Shown piece after piece: positions 5,502-49,335 of a stretch of 49,439 nt of DNA. Numbering within the stretch: position 1 is the stretch's first letter; the number at the start of each line of letters is the position of its first letter. The translations under genes were made by a program, and so were the position numbers. The stretch comes from a virus: positions 1 to 49,439 of the IMG/VR virus record IMGVR_UViG_3300017530_000010. One strand, 5' to 3'. The notes beneath the pieces were generated by a model. It did no database searches and was not told the DNA's origin. It worked only from the letters and a program-made list of their open reading frames with translations.

Positions 5502-6851
5502 ATGGTAGCACTACCAGCACACTGGGAGACATTTAGACCACACTACTTACAAAGTAAGCTATGGAGGTCTAGAGCTAGATTTAAGGCAGTGTATGCAGGT
5601 AGGGGTAGCGGTAAGACATCTATTGCTAAAAGATACATAGTTCGTTGGCTACCTGTTAAAAGGCCGTGGAATGATGTTAAGTTTTTCTACGCTTTGCCTA
5701 CTTATAAACAGGCAAAAAGAGTTGCTTGGCATGATTTGGTCTCACTTATACCTAGAGAATGGATTTCTGGTAAGCCTAATGTTTCTGAAATGGTACTTAA
5801 TACTGTGTTTGGTACACAGGTGTATGTTATTGGGCTAGACCATCCCCAACGTATTGAGGGTGTGCAATGGGATGGGGGTATTATAGACGAATGCTGTGAT
5901 CAAAAGTTAGATGAATTTTTGTACACAGGTTTGATGCCTACTTTAGCACATAAATTTGCTTGGCTATGGTTAATAGGTGTTCCTAAAAGATCGGGAGTAG
6001 GTTCTGACTTTTTTAGGAAGTATTGTGAGAGGGGAGAAAGAGGAGAAGTAATCGAGGGTACAGATGATAGGATAGAGACGTATACGTGGAAGAGTGATAC
6101 AGTTTTGACGGAAGAGCAGTTATCTACATTCAAACAACAGTATACTGAAAGAGACTATGCTGAACAGTTTGATGCTTCATGGCAAAATGTTGGCGGAGCT
6201 ATATTCTATGCTTTTGAAGAGACTATGCACGTTAGGTCTTCGGTGACGTATGACCCATCCCTTCCAATTTGTGTGTCATCTGACTTTAATGTCAATCCCA
6301 TGTCGTGGTGCCTATCACATATCTACGACGGTAAGGTATATGTATTTGATGAAATCTTTTTGAGAAATACAAATACACCAAATACATTGAATGAGTTATG
6401 GCGTATGTATGGTGGACACAAAAGCGGATTTGAATTCTATGGTGATGCCTCTTCAGGACATAGAGTATCATCAGCAGAGTTTACGGACTACGCATACATA
6501 AAAAATGATGTTAGATTCGATCAGTACACGAAAAAGAGACTGTATTATCTTAGGTCTAATCCGAATATTGCTGATCGTTTTGCCTCTTGTAACTCTATCT
6601 TTAAGAATGCTGCCGGAGAGGTACGGTGTTTTATCTCACCAAGATGTAAGTACCTTATTAAGGACTTGAGCAGTAGAGCATACAAGGAGGGTACTAGAGT
6701 AGCCAATGATAGTAGGGATAAAGATGGCGGGCACATGTCAGATGCTTTTGGTTATTTGATTTTTCGTAGGTTCCCAATAAGGATAAAATTGGGTAGAGAT
6801 AGCGCAAAAGTTAGCGTAGGAACAAATAGGATAATGCAGTTTGCAAGATGA
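5502..6851 (+). CDS. terL: Terminase large subunit
   Basis: A 449-residue DNA-packaging motor that translocates and cuts the genome at the portal. The N-terminal ATPase has Walker A AGRGSGKT (residues 32-39) and Walker B GGIIDE (about 125-130, with the catalytic Glu). The C-terminal RNase H-like nuclease has acidic residues in SSDFNVNP (D261), VFDE (283-284), FYGDASS (D315) and HMSDAFGYL near 410. The length is normal for the family. The stop overlaps the portal start (ATGA, 6848-6851). No small subunit is adjacent. The upstream leader consists of 11-bp repeats rather than a Shine-Dalgarno. Confidence 0.95.
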   Translation: MVALPAHWETFRPHYLQSKLWRSRARFKAVYAGRGSGKTSIAKRYIVRWLPVKRPWNDVKFFYALPTYKQAKRVAWHDLVSLIPREWISGKPNVSEMVLNTVFGTQVYVIGLDHPQRIEGVQWDGGIIDECCDQKLDEFLYTGLMPTLAHKFAWLWLIGVPKRSGVGSDFFRKYCERGERGEVIEGTDDRIETYTWKSDTVLTEEQLSTFKQQYTERDYAEQFDASWQNVGGAIFYAFEETMHVRSSVTYDPSLPICVSSDFNVNPMSWCLSHIYDGKVYVFDEIFLRNTNTPNTLNELWRMYGGHKSGFEFYGDASSGHRVSSAEFTDYAYIKNDVRFDQYTKKRLYYLRSNPNIADRFASCNSIFKNAAGEVRCFISPRCKYLIKDLSSRAYKEGTRVANDSRDKDGGHMSDAFGYLIFRRFPIRIKLGRDSAKVSVGTNRIMQFAR

Positions 6852-9019: not shown

Positions 9020-9922
9020 ATGAGAAGTACCGCCGCTTGGTTTAAATCAGTAGATTTAGATGATTTTCACAATAAAGTGGAAATGTTGTTCTATTTAGGG
9101 CATGCTATAGGTACCTCTTTTCCTGATTTTAGTGAAGAGTGTGGGAGGGCTTTTAGAGATGAGTGTAAAAATCAAAATAGTTTGTTCTTTGAGGTAGCTA
9201 CTGTCTCTCTTCAAAGATTTTCTGATTTGAAACAAGATGCTCTTTTTGGTCCTAAGACTATATATGCTGTTGAGAGTCGTTTTTGTCCATTGCCAGATAT
9301 TCAACCTATTTCTTCCGAAGGTCGTAATCATTGGTCATTTAATGATCTTAGTGTTTGGCATGATATGGGTAATTTAAGTTCTTTTGATGAAAAAGACTTA
9401 TTCTTACAAGCATGTAATATGTGGGGAGGTTCTAATACTCCATTGACTTTTAAGTTTTGGGAAAAGGATGGTGACCCTAAACCTAATATTTTTGCTCGCG
9501 CTCGTAGAATTGATGGTCCGAATAAGATTTTAGCATGGTCTCAATTACCACCGAATAACGCTGGACGTAATGTACAGTTAGAGCAACGATATGATTCTAG
9601 TGAATCTTGGGATGTCTTATGGCGGTTGTTGTCGACAATGGCACATGAGATTGGACATGCTTTGGGATTAGGTCATAGTGCTAATTCTAGTGATCTAATG
9701 TATGCTAACGCAAATGGTACAAAAGAACCTACTGTTGGAGATATTGTCGCTATTCAGTCTCTTTACGGTAAGAGTGGTGACCCTGACCCTGACCCTGACC
9801 CTGACCCTGACCCTGACCCTGACCCTGACCCTGACCCAAGTGTAGAAATCATTAGTTCTAAAGTCTTAGGCAAATTAGAAGACGGTCGTAATCTAATTGT
9901 CGAGCACAGGCTGGAAAAGTAA
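9020..9922 (+). CDS. Matrixin-type zinc metalloprotease with cysteine-switch-like propeptide
   Basis: 300 residues. The zinc site HEIGHALGLGH lies at 209-219 (His209, Glu210, His213, His219), and a Met-turn DLMY follows at 225-228, the metzincin signature of matrixins. Residues about 60-90 resemble a peptidoglycan-binding-like prodomain (FGPKT, then AVESRF). It ends RFCPLPD (87-93), which matches the Cys-x-x-Pro-Asp cysteine switch that keeps MMP zymogens inactive. After the protease comes an Asp-Pro dipeptide repeat (about 252-272) and a short beta tail. There is no signal peptide, so it may be a virion component or released at lysis. It could digest proteinaceous host envelope or process phage proteins. 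Confidence 0.85.
   Translation: MRSTAAWFKSVDLDDFHNKVEMLFYLGHAIGTSFPDFSEECGRAFRDECKNQNSLFFEVATVSLQRFSDLKQDALFGPKTIYAVESRFCPLPDIQPISSEGRNHWSFNDLSVWHDMGNLSSFDEKDLFLQACNMWGGSNTPLTFKFWEKDGDPKPNIFARARRIDGPNKILAWSQLPPNNAGRNVQLEQRYDSSESWDVLWRLLSTMAHEIGHALGLGHSANSSDLMYANANGTKEPTVGDIVAIQSLYGKSGDPDPDPDPDPDPDPDPDPDPSVEIISSKVLGKLEDGRNLIVEHRLEK
9777..9835 (+). repeat. Hexanucleotide tandem repeat coding Asp-Pro linker
   Basis: About ten uninterrupted copies of the hexamer GACCCT inside the matrixin gene encode an alternating Asp-Pro linker between protease and C-terminal tail. The perfect DNA repeat should be prone to copy-number slippage, so linker length probably varies between close relatives. Confidence 0.9.
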
Positions 9923-29578: not shown

Positions 29579-29613
29579 CTAGTTAACTATCACACCACAA
29601 TAGGAGAAATGTC

Positions 29614-29778
29614 ATGGGTCTACACAGCAAGCGTAAGGATGATGTTGGTAAGAAGATTTCCGAATTAAAGAAAGAAGGTATACCTCAAAAGCAGGCGGTA
29701 GCGAAGGCTATCAATATGGTGGGAAAGAAGAAGAACAAGAAGAAAAAGTCATTCCTAGATTTCTTACCTAAGAAGTAG
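29614..29778 (+). CDS. Small basic phage protein
   Basis: 54 residues with a clear Shine-Dalgarno (TAGGAGA, 29601-29607). The sequence carries the motif LKKEGIPQKQAVAKAIN, a recurring pattern in short phage proteins (KxEGxxxKQAVAIAL type). A run of eight basic residues (KKKNKKKK) and a hydrophobic end FLDFLPKK follow. It closes the structural operon. The role is unknown; nucleic-acid binding is possible from the charge. Confidence 0.65.
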   Translation: MGLHSKRKDDVGKKISELKKEGIPQKQAVAKAINMVGKKKNKKKKSFLDFLPKK

Positions 29779-29841
29779 CAACCAACTTTTTAAGTGTTCG
29801 AGAGCCTCAGTCTTAATTTATACTTACCCCCCGATAGGGGG

Positions 29842-29869
29842 TTCCCGGACACTTGGGCTCGCGTATAAT
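29842..29869 (+). promoter_or_regulatory. Promoter (type shared with 45020-45047)
   Basis: TTCCCG, a 16-bp spacer, then a perfect TATAAT at 29864-29869. Spacer and flanks (GGACACTTGG, then TCGC before the -10) are the same as in the promoter at 45020-45047. This marks a phage promoter class rather than a chance match. It would drive thymidylate synthase and the replication module. Confidence 0.65.
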
Positions 29870-29927
29870 GGAGGGATACCGCGTCGGACCTGAACTGAAG
29901 TCGGGTCCGGCGACACACCCGACGGCC

Positions 29928-29970
29928 ACAACGCCGATACAACGCCGATACAACGCCATACAACGCTGCT
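29928..29970. repeat. 11-bp tandem repeat in leader of thymidylate synthase
   Basis: Two perfect units of ACAACGCCGAT (29928-29949) are followed by a 10-base unit (ACAACGCCAT) and a diverged one (ACAACGCTGCT). The G-poor tract lies inside the presumed leader RNA, and resembles the AC-rich repeats before other genes here. Confidence 0.8.
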
Positions 29971-30026
29971 ACACACGATCCATAGTACCGCTCGTCTGAT
30001 TAGACCCCTACTGTTATACTACGCCC

Positions 30027-30087
30027 AAATTCGCCCCAGTGAATCGAGCCCTCTCCGTCCGCCAAGGGACCCCCATCTGGGGCGATT
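30027..30087 (+). ncRNA. Candidate structured leader RNA stem
   Basis: AAATTCGCCCCAG (30027-30039) pairs with CTGGGGCGATTT (30076-30087) through 12 base pairs with a single bulge. An inner CCCT/AGGG stem (around 30045 and 30067) is enclosed. The structure lies in the leader 56 nt before the thymidylate synthase ATG. It could be an attenuator or regulatory element. No aptamer consensus is recognised. Confidence 0.5.
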
Positions 30088-30142
30088 TGAACTGAGTCAA
30101 GGGGGTACATACTAAGTGGGTCTTATAAACAAGGTACAAAAA

Positions 30143-33719: not shown

Positions 33720-34243
33720 GAATTCTATTGTTGCTGTTGATGTTAGCATTACAGAGCACATGCTATGGTCAGCATATCGTAAGGCCGCCGGTAAAGACTC
33801 AAAAGCAATTGCTTGCTGAGTATAATCAGATGATGGAACGAGCCAGTGTGCGAGCACGACGTAGGGAGGAGCAGAGAGAACTTAGGTACAATAGCGGGCC
33901 TTTTATGCATATGGAAGATATGCCCCTTGCTAGATGGAATAAGCAAATGGTTATGTCTTTTCTTATAGAGGACGTTATACAATCCAATACAAAGTGGTCC
34001 GGAAAAAACTATATGACACTAGAGGGGTGCAAAGAGAAAGAGTGGGGGGAGAACAAAACCAGAGCAACGCCTTATAGGGTTGGTTTTGCTAAGGGCGCTA
34101 AGACATTTGGAGAGGGTATCTTAGTTGTTTTTAAAAAGCCCAACGGGAAGTTTTTAGTGGTCAAATGGGAAAATCTAAATCTCCATGATCGCAAGTGTAT
34201 TGAAGGCGAAATAAGGACAACAAGGAGAATCGCACTAAAATGA
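33716..34243 (+). CDS. Exported SHD1-like domain protein 2
   Basis: 175 residues, paralogous to the preceding protein. Signal peptide MRILLLLLMLALQSTCYGQ, then a basic Arg-rich region, then YMTLEGCKEKEWGENKTRAT and LVVFKKPNGKFLVVKWENLN, then LHDRKCI. The Cys-Lys-Glu and Lys-Pro-Asn-Gly-Lys blocks align with copy 1, confirming a shared SHD1-like fold. An insertion between signal peptide and domain makes it longer. It overlaps the next gene by ATGA (34240-34243), so all three exported proteins are one translational unit. Confidence 0.65.
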   Translation: MRILLLLLMLALQSTCYGQHIVRPPVKTQKQLLAEYNQMMERASVRARRREEQRELRYNSGPFMHMEDMPLARWNKQMVMSFLIEDVIQSNTKWSGKNYMTLEGCKEKEWGENKTRATPYRVGFAKGAKTFGEGILVVFKKPNGKFLVVKWENLNLHDRKCIEGEIRTTRRIALK

Positions 34244-35091
34244 GAATTCTAGTAACACTAATAATGCTATTAGTCGTAGCAGGCGCACACGCATCACCAG
34301 TGAAGTACAACTTTACTGGAATTGTCGCAGGAACTTTCAACGATACAGGTTGGCCAGATAACGTAATACTACACGCCAAAAGGGGGGAGGATGTGTCCGG
34401 GTGGTTCTCCATTGATTCTATAACTGGCGACCCCCTGGGATTTGGGGCTACAATAGGGGATGATACAATCACCCATGTAGGTAACGGAGAGACAGCTCTT
34501 TTTATAGCTAATGATTACATAGACTGTTGTCCACCCCCATCGACGACGTACGATAGTATCCAAGTCGGGTTATGGAACCTAGTATCATCAGGTGAGCCCG
34601 AGAATACATTCTCAACATATTTATCTATTTTTGATAGAAAGGATGCTAATATCGTATGGGATGACTCTTTGATCTACCTGCAAGACCTGCCACTGGTGAC
34701 AGGGGATTTCTCAGAGGACGGGGTTACTAGGTTAACTTTGAAGAGCGACATTTACAAACCGGACTGGGCAACAAGACCTACGATTGCTATCGACCTGGAT
34801 AGTTTAGACCTAGACTATGCCACGGGAGATGCTAATAGAGATGGCATTGTGGATGCTATCGATTTGAATATTTTAGGGACTAATTGGCAGAAACATGGTG
34901 GATGGGATCAGGGAGACTTTACGAGAGATGGATTTGTTAGTATCGCGGATCTACATGCGTTAGCTGTTAACTGGAGGGGCGGAGCTATACATAGACCAGT
35001 CTCAGCGGCGACAGCTATACCTGAACCAAACACTATTATGCTAATGATTATAGGGGGGCTGTTGGCATGGATAAAAATTGGAAGGCGATGA
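34240..35091 (+). CDS. Exported protein with dockerin-like repeats and PEP-CTERM sorting signal
   Basis: 283 residues. Signal peptide MRILVTLIMLLVVAGAHAS. A beta-rich exported body (about 20-190) is followed by two calcium-binding dockerin-like repeats: GDANRDGIVDAIDLNILG, then GDFTRDGFVSIADLHALA. The C-terminus is IPEPNTIMLMIIGGLLAW plus a basic tail, a textbook PEP-CTERM signal (Pro-Glu-Pro, hydrophobic helix, Arg cluster). Such proteins are processed by an exosortase, which no gene here encodes, so it must come from the host. That strongly suggests the infected cell is a planctomycete or similar exosortase-bearing bacterium. ATG at 34240 overlaps the previous stop. Confidence 0.8.
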   Translation: MRILVTLIMLLVVAGAHASPVKYNFTGIVAGTFNDTGWPDNVILHAKRGEDVSGWFSIDSITGDPLGFGATIGDDTITHVGNGETALFIANDYIDCCPPPSTTYDSIQVGLWNLVSSGEPENTFSTYLSIFDRKDANIVWDDSLIYLQDLPLVTGDFSEDGVTRLTLKSDIYKPDWATRPTIAIDLDSLDLDYATGDANRDGIVDAIDLNILGTNWQKHGGWDQGDFTRDGFVSIADLHALAVNWRGGAIHRPVSAATAIPEPNTIMLMIIGGLLAWIKIGRR

Positions 35092-35843: not shown

Positions 35844-36430
35844 TGTCGTGTGACAAAAGAATAACTGCTGCCCAAAGTCTAGACCCGTTTGATACTATCC
35901 ATAACATATTGGATATGAATGGTCCGCTATTCGAAACATTAAAAGAGTCTAGTTATCCTAGATGTATGGACGAGGCCGAGTGTATATTAGTTAAGTCTCA
36001 CTCTACGGACTGGGTTGGTTGGATAGAGATTCGTAAAATCAATATCCAACCTTATTATAGAACACCCTGTACATCTGCTATCCTAAAGTACCTAGGTGTT
36101 AATGAGTGGTCCGAGTCTCGATACTTAGAGGACTGTACAGAGATTCTAAAGAAGCAAGGATGGGTAGTGACACAAGAGAATATTATATCTTACACAGTTG
36201 GTTCATTACGAAAGGAGATAAAAGCTAACAGACTATGTAGTAAGGCGATATACTTTATGGTTATTATGTCCGGGCATGTTTTACTACTAGACAGTCATGG
36301 TGATACATGCTGCGACACCGCACCTGTTTCAAAAGATAGGCGACATGTTTACAATGTCTATTCAATTACGAGTAAAGAGAGAGAATCGTTTTCCAGTAAC
36401 CTATCCTATGCCATGAGTAAAATCAAATGA
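35843..36430 (+). CDS. Hypothetical protein
   Basis: 195 residues, coupled to both neighbours by TAATG and ATGA overlaps. Contains several Cys (YPRCMDEAECILV, then DSHGDTCCDTAPV) but no clear zinc motif. Mixed alpha/beta. It lies in the replication block before the SSB-like candidate, so a replication accessory role is plausible. Not recognised. Confidence 0.6.
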   Translation: MSCDKRITAAQSLDPFDTIHNILDMNGPLFETLKESSYPRCMDEAECILVKSHSTDWVGWIEIRKINIQPYYRTPCTSAILKYLGVNEWSESRYLEDCTEILKKQGWVVTQENIISYTVGSLRKEIKANRLCSKAIYFMVIMSGHVLLLDSHGDTCCDTAPVSKDRRHVYNVYSITSKERESFSSNLSYAMSKIK

Positions 36431-37473
36431 CCTCCCCGCAAAACCAAATTGCTGCCAGCATACTTAACGTTGTCTCTAAAACTGCGGCCCCTAACCCCAA
36501 CATCAACAAAGAGGAACAAATGGCGAATTCAGAGAACCTACCTGCCGTACAAAACAATAACGACCTTCCGGAGTACCTACAGCTCTACTTAGCGGATCAG
36601 AAGGCGCCTCTAGCCACCGGCCTAGAGGAAGCTAGGCAATTCACAACAGCACAATACATCAAGATTGTGCAATCGTCTAGTACAGATTTATTGAAAGAAC
36701 GTTCAATAGGGGATATGATACTGACCCCAGACGACGACCTGATTGCGCCTGTCATTTTGGATACGGAGGGTAAACCAACAACAGAATCTCAAAGAATACC
36801 TTTTACACCGATAAGTTTCTTTGTGGAGTGGATTATTCGGAATCCACTAAACGTAGAGCCGTTTGTAAGAGAAAGAAGTAGAGACCCTAGTAGTGAGATT
36901 GCTAGTAGGGCTAGAAGTTTCGATAAGAGTATTAACACTCTACCCTATCCTGAAGAGCCCGACAACAGGGAAAAGAGTATTCGATACTGCGAGACTCTTA
37001 ACTATATCTCTTTCTTGCACTTAGAGGGGTTTAATTCAGTACCTGTTATAGTTTCCTTTTCGGTAGGAAGTTATAAAAACGGTTCAGCCTTTGGGGCTTT
37101 AGCCGGTCTAAGAAAAGCCCCAATGTATTGTTGTATCTTTGAGCTATACTCAAAGTATACTGTGGCGAAGAAAGGTGATTACTATTCTTTAACCGCAGAT
37201 AACCCGCGACAAGGGCCAAGTTATGTCGAGCAAGGGGACTTGCAAAGGAATACTGATTTGTTTAAGGGGTACCTAGAGACCAACAAGTTGATTAGGGACC
37301 AGGAGATAGGAAATGGTGCCCCTGTCATTACTGACAATGTGATTGAGGCGGCAAATACCCTTTTGACACCTGAATCACCTGCCCGTACAGCCCCTGTACA
37401 TATACCGGCGCCTGTACATGTTCCTGCTCCTGCTCCCGTACCTACACGGCAAAGTGACCATATACCTTTCTAG
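36427..37473 (+). CDS. Candidate ssDNA-binding protein with SSB-like C-terminal tip
   Basis: 348 residues with no signal peptide. The body is unrecognised: helical opening LPEYLQLYLADQKAPLATGL, then strand-rich VPVIVSFSVGSYKNGSAFG. A Pro/Ala linker (PVHIPAPVHVPAPAPVP) precedes the last seven residues, QSDHIPF. Bacterial SSBs end in a flexible Pro-rich linker and D-x-I-P-F-like tip that recruits replication proteins. Position directly before the structured RNAs and primase-helicase gene agrees. The function is inferred from the tail; it lacks an obvious OB-fold signature. Confidence 0.5.
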   Translation: MTSPQNQIAASILNVVSKTAAPNPNINKEEQMANSENLPAVQNNNDLPEYLQLYLADQKAPLATGLEEARQFTTAQYIKIVQSSSTDLLKERSIGDMILTPDDDLIAPVILDTEGKPTTESQRIPFTPISFFVEWIIRNPLNVEPFVRERSRDPSSEIASRARSFDKSINTLPYPEEPDNREKSIRYCETLNYISFLHLEGFNSVPVIVSFSVGSYKNGSAFGALAGLRKAPMYCCIFELYSKYTVAKKGDYYSLTADNPRQGPSYVEQGDLQRNTDLFKGYLETNKLIRDQEIGNGAPVITDNVIEAANTLLTPESPARTAPVHIPAPVHVPAPAPVPTRQSDHIPF

Positions 37474-37480
37474 AACTTGT

Positions 37481-37577
37481 GATGGGGCAGTGGGCATGAG
37501 TCAGTCCCCCTAGCTGCGGCGCTAGGTTGAGGTGGCATACCCAGTCCATCTGTCGCCTCTTGCTGTCCTATCTTTTT
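37481..37577 (+). ncRNA. Structured RNA, unit 1 of a tandem pair
   Basis: Closing stem P1 GATGGGGCAG (37481-37490) with CTGTCCTATC (37563-37572): ten pairs including G-T wobbles. Inside are hairpin P2 CCTAGC/GCTAGG (37509-37514 with 37521-37526) and hairpin P3 GAGGTGGCA/TGTCGCCTC (37529-37537 with 37551-37559, nine pairs, 13-nt loop). The linker TTG joins P3 to P1. Five T follow. Unit 2 has the same P3-TTG-P1-T layout with compensatory changes. Not a known family to me. Confidence 0.75.
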
Positions 37578-37595
37578 GTTACTTATCGCCGTGAC

Positions 37596-37703
37596 ATAGA
37601 GCAGTAGGCTCGTGGTTGGGCCTTCCGGCACACCAATAAGTTATATGGTGGACTGGGTCGAAGTAGCACTCATGATATGTTGCTTCTTGCTGCTCTATTT
37701 TTT
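37596..37703 (+). ncRNA. Structured RNA, unit 2 of a tandem pair
   Basis: P1 ATAGAGCAG (37596-37604) pairs perfectly with CTGCTCTAT (37690-37698). A central imperfect hairpin lies at 37613-37635 (TGGT/ACCA outer, GCC/GGC inner). P3 GAAGTAGCA/TGTTGCTTC (37660-37668 with 37678-37686) has nine pairs and a 9-nt loop. TTG then P1 and six T follow. Two G-C pairs in unit 1 P3 are A-T pairs here, which is compensatory evidence that the stem is functional. The T-tract suggests it is its own terminator. Confidence 0.75.
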
Positions 37704-37754
37704 GTTATTATCTGCTATCGGTAATTTCATTAGATTGTCAGGAAGTACAGCGCA

Positions 37755-40562
37755 ATGTCTTTGCCGGTAGGGGATATACTTAAAGACTATGGATTTAACA
37801 CATTTCCCACTGACGCAAATAACATAAAATGTCTATGCCCTTTTCACAAAGACACTAATCCTAGCTGTAGTGTGGAGGTTAATACAGGTGTTTGGAAGTG
37901 TTTTGTCTGTGATGCAAAAGGGTCGATATACAACTTGTTAGCACGGAAGGCCAATAAGACAGAATTAGATATCCGCAATGACTTGTCACTAAGGTTCGGA
38001 GTCTCTAATGATAAGTCAGCAGACATAAAGGCCATTGAAAGGTACTGTAGAGCATTACTTAAGAACGAATGGCTACAGAACCAGTTATTCTATCGTGGTT
38101 TAACACCAGAGCTATTAGTTTACTATAGGCTGGGTGCTGACAGAGATAGAGTAACGATACCGATAAAGAACGTAGCTGGGTACTATGTCAATATACGGAG
38201 ATATAAGCCAGACGCACAATACAACAAGTTTATCTCTCAGAAAGGACGCGGAGAGAATCGCCTATACCCAATAGAGCAGTTATCTTTCGATACAATAGTT
38301 CTCTGTGGTGGAGAGCTAAAAGCTATTGTCGCTGCCTATTATCTTAACCTACATGGCATAGGGGCCATATCAGGTACCAGCGGGGAATCCAACCTATCTA
38401 TACCTCTTGCTGAGCAGTTCCACGGTAAGACAGTGTACGTGTGTATGGATATCGACCAAGCAGGTATAATTGCCGCTGAGAAGATAGCCGGTATTCTAGT
38501 GAGGTACGCCAAGAAGGTACATATCACCTCTCTGCCTCTTGACGTAAAGGAATTACCCAGGGGCGATATCAATGACTACGTTAGGCTAAATAGGTCCGAC
38601 GATAATTCATTTCTATACAAGGCGATATTCGAGAATTCTGTTGCACATACTCTTAAGAAAATAGAGCCACACAAGCAAAATGGAGAAGTACCAAAAGATG
38701 TGGGTTTATTTAATGCAATCGAAGGTGATAATGTGGGCAGCAGAGTACGACTAAAGGGCAGAGTTGCAGCTATACTAGATCAGCCATACGAGATACCAAA
38801 AGTAATAACAGTAAGTTGTGACCGGTCTCAATTATTTTGTAGCTACTGCCCAGTGTTCCACTCTAAAGACGATCAAGAATATACAATACCTGAAGAGTCA
38901 AAGTCTATTATCTCTATGTGTGATGCGCATGAGGTTGTACAGCATGTAGAATTGAAAGTGGCTGTGGGTATACCAAAGAAGTGCAAGGTGTGTACCTTTA
39001 AAATATTATCACACTACTCGATTCAAGAAGCCAGAATCAGTAATGTGTTATCAATGACTGAGAGAGATAACGTAGCTGGTATGCAGACAGCGTATTGCGT
39101 CGGTAATAACCTAGAGCCAAACTGTGAGTATACATTCACTGGCAGAAACTTCGCCCATGCTAAAACACAAACAGCAAGCTTTATATTCTCACAGTACGAC
39201 CCTTTGGAGGATGAGTTATCTTCATACAAAGGTAAGAGAATAAAAGACCTAAAAGAATTCCAGCCAGAAGAATGGACAGTCAAGAGCATAAGAGATAAGC
39301 TATCTTGTATCTATGATGATCTAGAAGCCAATGTAACGTACATCTACGAACGTAGAAGAATACATCTAGCTGTTGATCTAGCTTATCATTCACCTCTTCA
39401 ATTTGTTCTAGACGATGAATTACAAAAGGGATGGGTTGAAGTGCTAATAATTGGTGACTCGTCTATAGGTAAGACCAAGACAGCAAACAATCTAAAGGAG
39501 CATTACGGGGTAGGCAAACGAACATCTTGTAAGGGAGCGACATTAGCCGGATTGCTGGGTGGATTAGCTTCCATCAGTAACAGGTGGTTCGTTACCTGGG
39601 GCATCATCCCGACCTATGACAAACAGCTAGTTATTCTAGAGGAGCTATCCGGCATAACTAGAGGCGCCTTCCAGGGTATGACGGACATGCGATCAACAGG
39701 GATAGCAGAGATTACTAAGATAGAAAAGAGATCAACACACGCTAGAACTAGACTTGTAGCAATCTCCAATCCCATTAGAGGTAAGTCAGTAAACTCTTAT
39801 ACATTTGGCATACAAGCTATAGAGGAATTGATACGGGCACCTGAAGACATACGGAGATTCGATTTATGCTTAACCGAATCCGAGGATGACATAGACATAG
39901 TCAAGCTTTCGAAGCTACAGTCATATAGGCCAAACATAGAGCATAAATATACTGGTGAATTATGCAGAGAGCTAATTCTATGGGGCTGGTCTAGAGATCA
40001 TTCCCAGGTGAAGTTTGAGGACGCGGCAATTAGGTTGATAGAACCTGTAGTAAATAAGCTATGCGACACCTTCTCAGAATCCTGCCCGATAATAGACAAA
40101 GGGTCTACTAGGTATAAGGTAGCTAGACTAGCTGCATCATTAGCTGTTAGAACTTTCTCACATGAGAATGAAGATACGGTATTGATTCGTGAATGTCATA
40201 TAGAATTCATCTTTAACATGTTAATGAAATTCTACAGTGAGACTAAGATAGGTTATCTAAGGTACTCAGAGTCTATTAAGTACACTAATGAGTTACGTGA
40301 TGTAGACATCATAAGAATACAGATAGATAAAATAGTTCATGCAAAAGACTTTGTTAGCAAGATGTTATATTGCATTGACTTTGACATGGACGACCTAGCG
40401 GACTGGACAGGATATCCTCGTGATTTTGCTCGACCAGTTCTATCCTTGCTGGTCAGAAAGAATGCTGTTGTACGAATGGGTAAATTTAGATACAAAAAGA
40501 CTGACGCATTTAATTCGTATCTTCACGATCTATTCGGTAGTGGGGAGTTAAGGAATAGTTAA
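37755..40562 (+). CDS. Primase fused to MCM-like replicative helicase
   Basis: 935 residues with three parts. First, a DnaG-type primase start: CHC2 zinc ligands C28, H31, C49, C52, then TOPRIM with GGELK (185-189) and the DxD of MDIDQAG (232-234). Second, residues about 320-480 are an OB-like region with several Cys pairs (C361/C364, C409/C412), as in MCM N-terminal zinc domains. Third, an AAA+ core with Walker A GDSSIGKT (566-573), Walker B VILEEL (625-630), sensor AISNP (668-672) and arginine-finger EDIRRFD (696-702). MCM-primase fusions are known from prophages such as BcMCM. It primes and unwinds at the phage fork. Confidence 0.85.
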   Translation: MSLPVGDILKDYGFNTFPTDANNIKCLCPFHKDTNPSCSVEVNTGVWKCFVCDAKGSIYNLLARKANKTELDIRNDLSLRFGVSNDKSADIKAIERYCRALLKNEWLQNQLFYRGLTPELLVYYRLGADRDRVTIPIKNVAGYYVNIRRYKPDAQYNKFISQKGRGENRLYPIEQLSFDTIVLCGGELKAIVAAYYLNLHGIGAISGTSGESNLSIPLAEQFHGKTVYVCMDIDQAGIIAAEKIAGILVRYAKKVHITSLPLDVKELPRGDINDYVRLNRSDDNSFLYKAIFENSVAHTLKKIEPHKQNGEVPKDVGLFNAIEGDNVGSRVRLKGRVAAILDQPYEIPKVITVSCDRSQLFCSYCPVFHSKDDQEYTIPEESKSIISMCDAHEVVQHVELKVAVGIPKKCKVCTFKILSHYSIQEARISNVLSMTERDNVAGMQTAYCVGNNLEPNCEYTFTGRNFAHAKTQTASFIFSQYDPLEDELSSYKGKRIKDLKEFQPEEWTVKSIRDKLSCIYDDLEANVTYIYERRRIHLAVDLAYHSPLQFVLDDELQKGWVEVLIIGDSSIGKTKTANNLKEHYGVGKRTSCKGATLAGLLGGLASISNRWFVTWGIIPTYDKQLVILEELSGITRGAFQGMTDMRSTGIAEITKIEKRSTHARTRLVAISNPIRGKSVNSYTFGIQAIEELIRAPEDIRRFDLCLTESEDDIDIVKLSKLQSYRPNIEHKYTGELCRELILWGWSRDHSQVKFEDAAIRLIEPVVNKLCDTFSESCPIIDKGSTRYKVARLAASLAVRTFSHENEDTVLIRECHIEFIFNMLMKFYSETKIGYLRYSESIKYTNELRDVDIIRIQIDKIVHAKDFVSKMLYCIDFDMDDLADWTGYPRDFARPVLSLLVRKNAVVRMGKFRYKKTDAFNSYLHDLFGSGELRNS

Positions 40563-44916: not shown

Positions 44917-45019
44917 AGCGGTTGGTAAAAATGCCGACTTGTGACATTTAAATGGTAATACATATTGTGATGCTTTGGTATGATAGTTGCTATTACGGAT
45001 TTTTTCCGAATTTTTCGGG

Positions 45020-45047
45020 TTGCCGGACACTTGGTATCGCATACAAT
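45020..45047 (+). promoter_or_regulatory. Promoter (type shared with 29842-29869)
   Basis: TTGCCG, 16-bp spacer, then TACAAT at 45042-45047. It matches the promoter at 29842-29869 across the -35 end, GGACACTTGG and TCGC elements, differing mainly in the middle of the spacer. It lies 54 bp before the RuvB-like ATG at 45101. Confidence 0.65.
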
Positions 45048-46473: not shown

Positions 46474-46497
46474 TACATTTCGTCCGTACATAGTTTA
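46474..46497 (+). promoter_or_regulatory. Possible sigma-70-type promoter
   Basis: A TTGACA at the start of this interval lies about 18 bp before TAGTTT, just ahead of the AACAC repeat leader. The -35 is consensus and the -10 is poor. It would produce a transcript beginning in the 5-bp repeats before 46588. Confidence 0.4.
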
Positions 46498-46500
46498 GAT

Positions 46501-46576
46501 ACACAACACAACACAACACAACACAACACAACACAACACAACACAACACAACACAACACAACACAACACAACACAA
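46501..46576. repeat. Pentanucleotide tandem repeat leader 1
   Basis: About 15 units of AACAC (the array is ACACAACACA repeated). It is strictly A/C, with no G or T, directly upstream of a Shine-Dalgarno-like AAAGGA and the ATG at 46588. The same repeat recurs before 46838. It may keep the leader RNA single-stranded. Confidence 0.95.
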
Positions 46577-46587
46577 AGGAACAAGAC

Positions 46588-46788
46588 ATGTCACCTAAAA
46601 ACATAATGAAGACCCTGAGCCAAGAGGACCTCTTGGAAGTGACTAGATTGCAGAGGTATTGTCGACGAACTATTTCGAGTGCGAAATGGTCAAAAAGTCA
46701 AAAAGACTTCAGCAAGAATTATCGTCGATGCGTAGCTAGTCATGTCCGTAGAGACCTTCAAAAGGTCCGTGAAATTATCGGTGTTTAG
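46588..46788 (+). CDS. Small basic hypothetical protein
   Basis: 66 residues with AAAGGA before ATG 46588, after the AC-repeat leader. Arg/Lys-rich and helical (LLEVTRLQRYCRRTISSAKWS, then YRRCVASHVRRDLQKVRE). Possibly nucleic-acid binding. No motif. Co-translated with nothing; the next gene has its own repeat leader. Confidence 0.55.
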   Translation: MSPKNIMKTLSQEDLLEVTRLQRYCRRTISSAKWSKSQKDFSKNYRRCVASHVRRDLQKVREIIGV

Positions 46789-46792
46789 CAGA

Positions 46793-46825
46793 CAACACAA
46801 CACAACACAACACAACACAACACAA
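46793..46825. repeat. Pentanucleotide tandem repeat leader 2
   Basis: About six units of AACAC, followed by the same AAAGGAACAA spacer as in leader 1. So the leader element was duplicated between the two small genes. Located right after the stop of 46588-46788. Confidence 0.9.
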
Positions 46826-46837
46826 AGGAACAATAGC

Positions 46838-47053
46838 ATGGATACCTTCATCGGAAACACCTACGTCGTTCTGATTGATGACGGGACCTTGGACACTGTA
46901 CTCTCCGTCGATGGTCAAGAACTACGCTTTGGGCAAGACGCATGTGCTCGCAATCCAGACGGGTCAATACCACAAGTAGAATTCAACGAACTGGCGGAAA
47001 TGGCTGTTGAAATCATCGAAACACAAGAACTCGCTGTACTGGGAAGGGTGTAA
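46838..47053 (+). CDS. Small hypothetical protein
   Basis: 71 residues from ATG 46838, placed downstream of leader 2 with AAAGGA; the frame is also open upstream into the repeats, which I exclude. Acidic, beta-rich (TYVVLIDDGTLDTVLSVDGQ), ending NELAEMAVEIIETQELAVL. Unrecognised. Confidence 0.55.
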   Translation: MDTFIGNTYVVLIDDGTLDTVLSVDGQELRFGQDACARNPDGSIPQVEFNELAEMAVEIIETQELAVLGRV

Positions 47054-47057
47054 CGAC

Positions 47058-47450
47058 ATGATTATTAAACGCAAAAGCTTACCTCCACACATTGCGGAGG
47101 CCCTCGGAATTATTAAACGCAAAAGCTTACCTCCACACATTGCGGAGGCCCTCGGACGCAAGAAGAACGTAATTGTTACAATAACGGAAGGCCCTATTGA
47201 GACGTTTGGCACATGGTGGGACGGAGGTAGTCGATCGACGTACCACGCCATGAACCTAAACACTGGTTTTTTAGGGGGACCAGACTACATGGATGAAGTA
47301 CGTAAATTGAATTTCGGACATGAGGTGCGAAAAGCTATCGTGTCACCAGGTACTGCAATTGTGGTACTAGGTATTTCTAGCGGCAAGACATCTACTCCGC
47401 GCCTTTACGTGCACCCTAAAGACCGTGGTCTAGTGGGAGGGGGTGCTTAA
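47058..47450 (+). CDS. Hypothetical protein with perfect internal duplication
   Basis: 130 residues from ATG 47058. Residues 2-17 and 18-33 are identical (IIKRKSLPPHIAEALG twice), from a perfect 48-bp tandem duplication. The rest is a Gly-rich beta protein (VIVTITEGPIETFGTWWDGG). The duplication keeps frame. It shares its last base with the next ATG. Function unknown. Confidence 0.55.
   Translation: MIIKRKSLPPHIAEALGIIKRKSLPPHIAEALGRKKNVIVTITEGPIETFGTWWDGGSRSTYHAMNLNTGFLGGPDYMDEVRKLNFGHEVRKAIVSPGTAIVVLGISSGKTSTPRLYVHPKDRGLVGGGA
47061..47156. repeat. Perfect 48-bp tandem duplication
   Basis: Positions 47061-47108 and 47109-47156 are identical over 48 bp, with no substitution, so the event is recent. 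It lies at the 5' end of 47058-47450 and encodes a 16-residue repeat. Assembly artefact is possible. Confidence 0.95.
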
Positions 47451-48726: not shown

Positions 48727-48868
48727 ATGGACCCGGACGCAACGTTTAGGGGTTAGTCGGGATGAATTTATCGCTTTCCTCCGTGTTGTCAAACAACAAT
48801 GTAAACGGATGAGCGCTGAGAATACTAGTAAATTCGAAACGGAAGGTAGGGAACAAGATGAACGATAA
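48727..48868 (+). pseudogene. Small gene apparently split by a G-run frameshift
   Basis: ATG 48727 opens MDPDATFR and stops at TAG in the next codons. Removing one G from the run 48749-48752 gives MDPDATFRVSRDEFIAFLRV, then VKQQCKRMSAENTSKFET, ending at TAA 48866-48868, which overlaps the next start. The corrected 46-residue product has the helical, charged style of neighbouring miniproteins. Without correction there is no sensible start for the open frame. Confidence 0.4.
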
Positions 48869-49301
48869 CGCGGAATACCTAATCGAAACTAAGAATGACT
48901 TAGGGATGCGTCTTGACCTGCAGAATGCTGACCTGCAGAATGCTAACCTGCAGAATGCTAACCTGCAGAATGCTAACCTGCAGAATGCTAACCTATGTTA
49001 TGCTGACCTGCAGAATGCTGACCTGCAGAATGCTAACCTGCAGAATGCTAACCTGCAGAATGCTAACCTGCAGAATGCTGACCTATGTTATGCTGACCTG
49101 CAGAATTCTAACCTACGTTATGCTGACCTGCAGAATGCTAACCTGCGGAATGCTGACCTATGTTATGCTGACCTGCAGAATTCTAACCTAAGTTATGCTG
49201 ACCTACGTTATGCTGACCTACGTTATGCTGACCTATGTTATGCTGACCTACGTTATGCTGACCTGCAGAACATCAATTTTACTAATACCCTATTCCGTTG
49301 A
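48858..49301 (+). CDS. Pentapeptide-repeat protein
   Basis: 147 residues with GGAAGG and GGGAA upstream of ATG 48858. After 17 non-repeat residues the whole body is about 25 five-residue repeats of the form A(D/N)LxN or A(D/N)LCY (DLQNANLQNANLQNANL..., then ADLRYADLCY), ending INFTNTLFR. This folds as a right-handed quadrilateral beta-helix; some members mimic DNA and block gyrase (Qnr, MfpA). The repeats here are unusually uniform and Asn/Tyr-rich, so the role is open. Coded by a 15-bp DNA repeat. Confidence 0.85.
   Translation: MNDNAEYLIETKNDLGMRLDLQNADLQNANLQNANLQNANLQNANLCYADLQNADLQNANLQNANLQNANLQNADLCYADLQNSNLRYADLQNANLRNADLCYADLQNSNLSYADLRYADLRYADLCYADLRYADLQNINFTNTLFR
48919..49276. 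repeat. 15-bp tandem repeat coding the pentapeptide array
   Basis: Units of the type AATGCTAACCTGCAG, interspersed with TATGCTGACCTGCAG-like and TATGCTGACCTACGT-like variants, run without break. Near-identical DNA units (not just protein) indicate recent expansion and possible length variation between strains. Confidence 0.9.
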
Positions 49302-49306
49302 CCCTC

Positions 49307-49335
49307 TTGACAAATAGTTCGCACGAAACAATAAT
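49307..49335 (+). promoter_or_regulatory. Promoter
   Basis: TTGACA (49307-49312), a 17-bp spacer, then AATAAT (49330-49335). The -35 is consensus and spacing is ideal. It lies right after the pentapeptide gene and before a hairpin leader of the last gene, so a new transcription unit begins here. Confidence 0.65.

Follow-up and report, generated by a model that had tools for sequence, protein, structure and literature searches.

In the rpsU-dnaG operon of E. coli, the Rho-independent terminator T1 partly controls expression of the downstream primase gene (PMC7863352). In phage PhiKZ, a ~100-nt RNA from the 3′ UTR of PHIKZ298, which ends in a predicted terminator, was shown by Northern blot (PMC8545117). 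The phage locus described here resembles T1 in that a terminator-like structure separates a primase gene from the gene before it; T1, however, is a single 31-nt terminator of a bacterial operon, whereas the phage locus has two four-way junctions of ~100 nt with no sequence relation to it. Like the PHIKZ298 RNA, the units are intergenic structured phage RNAs of ~100 nt that follow a gene, but the PhiKZ RNA occurs in one copy, has two stem-loops and was seen by Northern blot, whereas the units described here are known from sequence.

Layout of the gap and its two units

The window (the whole stretch of 49,439 nt analyzed here, IMG/VR record IMGVR_UViG_3300017530_000010) contains a gap of 281 nt (37474–37754) between the ORF at 36427–37473 and the primase ORF at 37755–40562. 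Within this gap lie two tandem units of ~95–105 nt each, and each consists of a closing stem (P1), a small hairpin (P2), a central hairpin (P3), a nine-pair hairpin (P4) and a T-tract. Because P2 follows the 5′ strand of P1 as an extra hairpin, each unit was assigned as a four-way junction. The features are as follows.

36427–37473, + strand: upstream gene for a putatively SSB-like protein of 348 aa with the C-terminal tip ...DHIPF
37481–37577, + strand: unit 1 (W1, type I), four-way-junction RNA with U-tract
37481–37490 with 37563–37572, + strand: unit 1 P1, pair probability at least 0.97
37492–37507 (37492–37495/37504–37507), + strand: unit 1 P2 hairpin, probability ~0.7 (mean 0.72)
37496–37504, + strand: unit 1 P2 loop region ATGAGTCAG, identical in the relative L001
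37509–37514/37521–37526, + strand: unit 1 P3, central hairpin CCTAGC/GCTAGG
37529–37537 with 37551–37559, + strand: unit 1 P4, nine pairs, GAGGTGGCA/TGTCGCCTC
37543–37550, + strand: part of the unit 1 P4 loop, AGTCCATC, identical in L001
37573–37577, + strand: unit 1 U-tract (U5), directly 3′ of P1
37596–37703, + strand: unit 2 (W2, type II), four-way-junction RNA with U-tract
37596–37604 with 37690–37698, + strand: unit 2 P1
37607–37622 (37607–37611/37618–37622), + strand: unit 2 P2 hairpin
37624–37635/37646–37657, + strand: unit 2 P3 hairpin with internal loop
37660–37668 with 37678–37686, + strand: unit 2 P4, nine pairs, GAAGTAGCA/TGTTGCTTC
37699–37703, + strand: unit 2 U-tract (U5), directly 3′ of P1
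37755–40562, + strand: downstream primase-helicase gene (CHC2 zinc ribbon, Toprim-like, MCM-type P-loop)

In the fold of the whole gap, the mean pair probabilities of the stems ranged from 0.72 (unit 1 P2) up to 1.00. An earlier note on this DNA had quoted the stem sequences, all of which were found where it placed them, and its description of P1 and the T-tracts matched; its layout of P1, central hairpin, nine-bp hairpin (its P3, our P4) and T-tract held, but it had missed P2 and had given P1 as 6 bp. P1 comprises 9–10 perfect pairs, or 13–14 when the inner G-U pairs are counted, and U5 follows it directly. The upstream protein was called SSB-like because of its acidic C-terminal tail and its weak, non-significant fold similarity to ssDNA-binding proteins; its predicted structure has a confident core with no significant match in the PDB (RPA and ThermoDBP weak, E>0.05).

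Covariation and distribution of the units

Two further copies were found in a relative, L001 (IMGVR_UViG_3300003885_000004), whose primase is 84% and polymerase 78% identical to those of the window.

L001 ~5697–5786: unit A (LA), ahead of the primase gene
L001 ~5852–5949: unit B (LB), ahead of the primase gene

When compared with dinucleotide shuffles, folding gave z scores of -2.6 (unit 1) and -4.8 (unit 2) in the window and of -5.6 and -4.2 for the units of the relative; the + strand fold was more stable than that of the - strand in all four. The covariation test covered 18 pairs (nine of P1 and nine of P4) in the four units of the two phages. Standard pairs were present in 69/69 cells, with no broken pair, and two-sided changes occurred at 5 pairs. 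The nine-pair stems of units 1 and 2 differ at two pairs, each from G-C to A-U on both sides as first noticed. One-sided changes were all G-U compatible (G-C/G-U, A-U/G-U or U-G/C-G). The covariation score was 0.444 against a shuffled mean of 0.298, a value reached by 1 of 500 shuffles, and slid versions of the alignment scored 0.06–0.23, always below 0.24. The retention of G-U pairs, together with one-sided changes that still allow G-U pairing, places selection on the + strand RNA; P1 and P4 are under RNA-level selection, with compensatory changes in homologues, in agreement with the selected structure first proposed from the two units of the window. With only four sequences, of which W1/W2 and LA/LB are duplicate pairs, this is strong evidence for structure and not for a broad family.

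A covariance model built from the four units (R1) found exactly two copies per genome in the window and L001; the four match by construction, and the informative part is the absence of other matches. The model gave no significant match in the loci of the other relatives. Three core DNA-pattern scans of 2.9 million viral contigs returned the L001 contig as the sole true match; other matches were dropped, as they fold differently and do not score with the model. The view that the form belongs to no described family held for Rfam 15 (4227 models, gathering and lax thresholds), in which no family matched in the window; the best sub-threshold scores were 16.1 of 57.5 bits (window, minus strand) and 14 of 45 bits (L001). 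Comparison of the gap with phages and plasmids by blastn gave chance-length matches only (20–25 nt). Neither a tRNA nor a tmRNA gene was found by ARAGORN in the window or L001, and a tRNA-derived origin of the units was rejected, as no tRNA features were found. Among cellular genomes one related primase was found, in a Robiginitomaculum MAG, and it lacks the RNA; that contig (L093, JALZUP010000053.1) bears the phage SSB-like/primase module and is probably a phage contig or prophage. As far as the viral, phage, plasmid and cellular sequences searched indicate, the units appear confined to two phages.

The junction in relatives and a terminator-like reading

Loci with related primases were collected by primase alignment (some 55 from viruses and one on a MAG contig), and the upstream gene was homologous in nearly all of them (phmmer). 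The order of SSB-like gene, gap and primase was orthologous in ~40–45 relatives (primase identity 35–46%), and the upstream protein usually has an acidic C-terminal tail whose last residue is hydrophobic or aromatic. A strict scan of 38 gaps of usable length (at least 7 perfect pairs, at least 4 of them G-C, then a U-rich tail) found a stem with U-tract in 21, where mononucleotide shuffles predict 1.6; some of these relatives are not independent of one another, and 17 of the 38 had no strict terminator match. Most matching gaps hold plain hairpins. Simple terminators such as those of L074, L084 and L112 share with the units the gene junction and the stem with U-tract, but are short-looped and unduplicated, without inner hairpins or sequence similarity. 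Branched closing stems with two inner hairpins and a U-tract were found in L094 (46% primase identity, nearest after L001) and in L076; these resemble the units in closing stem, inner hairpins, U-rich tail and junction, but are single-copy, have different stems and are unmatched by R1, the likeness being one of layout. A single inner hairpin inside a closing stem with U-tract occurs in L095 and L079. The U-tract of L095 stops only a few bases short of the primase ATG, so that the primase and downstream genes must be read through. In L073 (3815–3890) and L081 (3777–3864), tRNA genes (tRNA-Thr and tRNA-Leu) lie at the same junction. Distant phages of Actinobacteria and Firmicutes hosts have a long noncoding gap here, which begins with terminator-like hairpins and contains repeats. 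Judged from these sequences, the junction is a putative terminator slot in the phage group. It would represent a conserved site for RNA control signals in a large group of uncultured phages, mostly plain terminators, sometimes tRNAs, and in this phage pair a duplicated multi-hairpin RNA with sequence-constrained loops.

With some reserve, we lean to the reading that the region consists of tandem branched intrinsic terminator-like RNAs (attenuators) that lower primase expression. Both units would belong to the 3′ UTR of the SSB-like gene, and transcription of the early operon would pass through that gene into them. In each unit the three inner hairpins would fold first and bring both sides of P1 into contact, and this stem with its U5 would then release part of the polymerases. 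The result would be abundant SSB-like mRNA with a structured, protected 3′ end, while the primase-helicase and DNA polymerase would be carried on read-through transcripts only; partial termination and the dosage effect are both inferred.

A stable stem directly followed by a U-tract is present in three of the four units, with U5 after P1 in units 1 and 2 and UUUCUAUUU after P1 in unit A of L001. LB has a weak tail (GCGUUUAUAC), and the whole-gap fold gives its P1 a probability of only 23%, because 14-nt repeats (GGAATCACAGAGCA) at 5799–5852, between the two units of L001, offer alternative 5′ strands. Both features of LB speak against a terminator, as does the A-U-rich P1 of unit 2, and two consecutive terminators ahead of essential genes would need read-through or antitermination. 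The units were termed terminator-like because P1 closes 64–77 nt with three hairpins, in place of a 3–8 nt hairpin loop, and because a consensus scan of 36900–37900 found no standard terminator. No sigma-70-like promoter was found within the gap. The possibility of a simple pair of terminators, raised in the earlier note against its own proposal, proved right in part, in that the junction is a putative terminator slot, P1 with its U-tract is terminator-like in three of the four units, and other relatives have branched structures of this kind there; the units are not simple terminators, because their inner hairpins have been retained and the sequence of two loops is constrained. The structure is real, selected and absent from the databases searched, and is best regarded as a terminator or attenuator in elaborate form.

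Conserved loops and alternative readings

The P2 loop ATGAGTCAG and the P4 loop AGTCCATC are identical in the type I units W1 and LB (17/17 nt), whereas their P3 loops differ. Loop conservation is confined to type I units, and the order of unit types is swapped in L001 relative to the window. At fourfold-degenerate sites the two phages are 49% identical in the primase, 40% in the polymerase and 51% in the SSB-like gene, and the chance of 17 identical positions is ~8e-6 at 50% per site. The type I loops are therefore constrained in sequence beyond the needs of a terminator, and a terminator alone is insufficient to account for them; we infer a further sequence-specific role, such as contact with a protein or RNA, possibly the neighbouring unit. 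Should the loops govern read-through, the dose of the replication machinery would be set here by a phage RNA.

The main rival, which we consider unlikely, is an independently functional ~100-nt RNA: the units would be set free from the 3′ UTR, by termination or processing, as stable phage small RNAs of ~95–105 nt whose conserved loops act in trans on a protein or on RNA of the host or phage. The size of the units, their autonomous fold and the conserved loops are consistent with such RNAs, as are the precedent of the PhiKZ ~100-nt RNA (PMC8545117) and the tRNA genes in the same slot of L073 and L081. Against it, no conserved antisense target was found in the phage, since complements of both type I loops are absent from the window and have one unshared occurrence in the examined part of L001.

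Complementarity between the units raises two further readings. ACTCATG in unit 2 P4 (37668–37674) is complementary to CATGAGT of unit 1 (37495–37501), so that the type I P2 loop could pair with the type II P4 loop as CATGAG/CTCATG in the window and as TGAG/CTCA, extending to GTATGAG/CTCATAC, in L001 (joint shuffle probability for both genomes ~0.005). In addition, the unit 1 P4 loop (37539–37550) is complementary over 12 pairs to the 3′ strand of unit 2 P3 (37647–37658), with an energy of -21.8 kcal/mol matched in 1 of 5000 shuffles. It is rather unlikely that the units represent a new class of phage RNA, in which two diverged four-way-junction RNAs dock by their loops into one composite regulator whose control of read-through depends on loop sequence (through a ligand, protein or RNA). 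More doubtful still is that loop-loop pairing makes the two units one composite RNA, a tandem switch controlling read-through to the primase. The P2–P4 loop pairing in both genomes and the strength of the 12-pair interaction favour this switch, but the latter is absent in L001 (P ~0.8), where the unit types are swapped, its helix could not form fully inside a 13-nt loop, and the comparison covers two genomes. As these tests came after several loop pairs had been looked at, docking was kept as a hypothesis, and the inter-unit loop pairing is suggestive only.

Phage T7 uses RNase III-type sites between early genes, and long stable stems between early genes could likewise form an mRNA processing or stability element, either an RNase III-type cleavage site or a 3′-end protector, with no role in termination; this is improbable, as it leaves the U-tracts after P1 and the terminator slot of the relatives unexplained. 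A DNA-level element near the primase gene, whether a replication origin or protein-binding palindromes, would fit inverted repeats upstream of the primase and the repeat-rich gaps of more distant relatives, but is very improbable given the G-U pairs kept, the one-sided changes that are G-U compatible on the + strand and the less stable minus-strand fold in 4/4 units. That unit 2 codes for a small membrane protein is hardly credible: a 52-codon GTG ORF with a hydrophobic stretch (37612–37770) does run through unit 2 and overlap the primase start, so that the region first described as having no reading frame is free only of ORFs of annotated size, but no matching frame exists in L001 or unit 1, and loop lengths differ by non-multiples of three. 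A leader peptide, considered on account of an ATG or GTG at the P2 loop in 4/4 units (MSQSP-stop in unit 1), was rejected, as there is no clear ribosome-binding site and the frames are not conserved.

Several other features of the window were recorded. The ORF at 34240–35091 and its homologue in L001 (1091–1966) encode a protein with a hydrophobic segment at the N-terminus, repeats resembling dockerin and a C-terminal tail of PEP-CTERM-like type; the dockerin and PEP-CTERM matches are weak and below the curated cut-off, with a visible tail of the VPEPST/IPEPNT type. A PEP-CTERM-like phage protein suggests a host with PEP-CTERM/exosortase sorting, and such a tail presumably fits a host of the Planctomycetota/Verrucomicrobia type. 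Tandem repeat arrays lie at 1–55, 9766–9843, 47061–47156 and 48854–49318 (11-, 6-, 48- and 15-nt units), and a 537-nt gap at 29579–30115, with no + strand ORF of at least 60 aa, precedes a thymidylate synthase-like gene. A 31-nt sequence found at 29839–29869 and 45017–45047 (84% identical, GGGTTNCCGGACACTTGG...CGNATANAAT) is a possible promoter motif of the phage. ACAAC tandem arrays at 46493–46604 and 46782–46843, which end in AAAGGAACAA just ahead of small ORFs, look like repeated leader/RBS cassettes.
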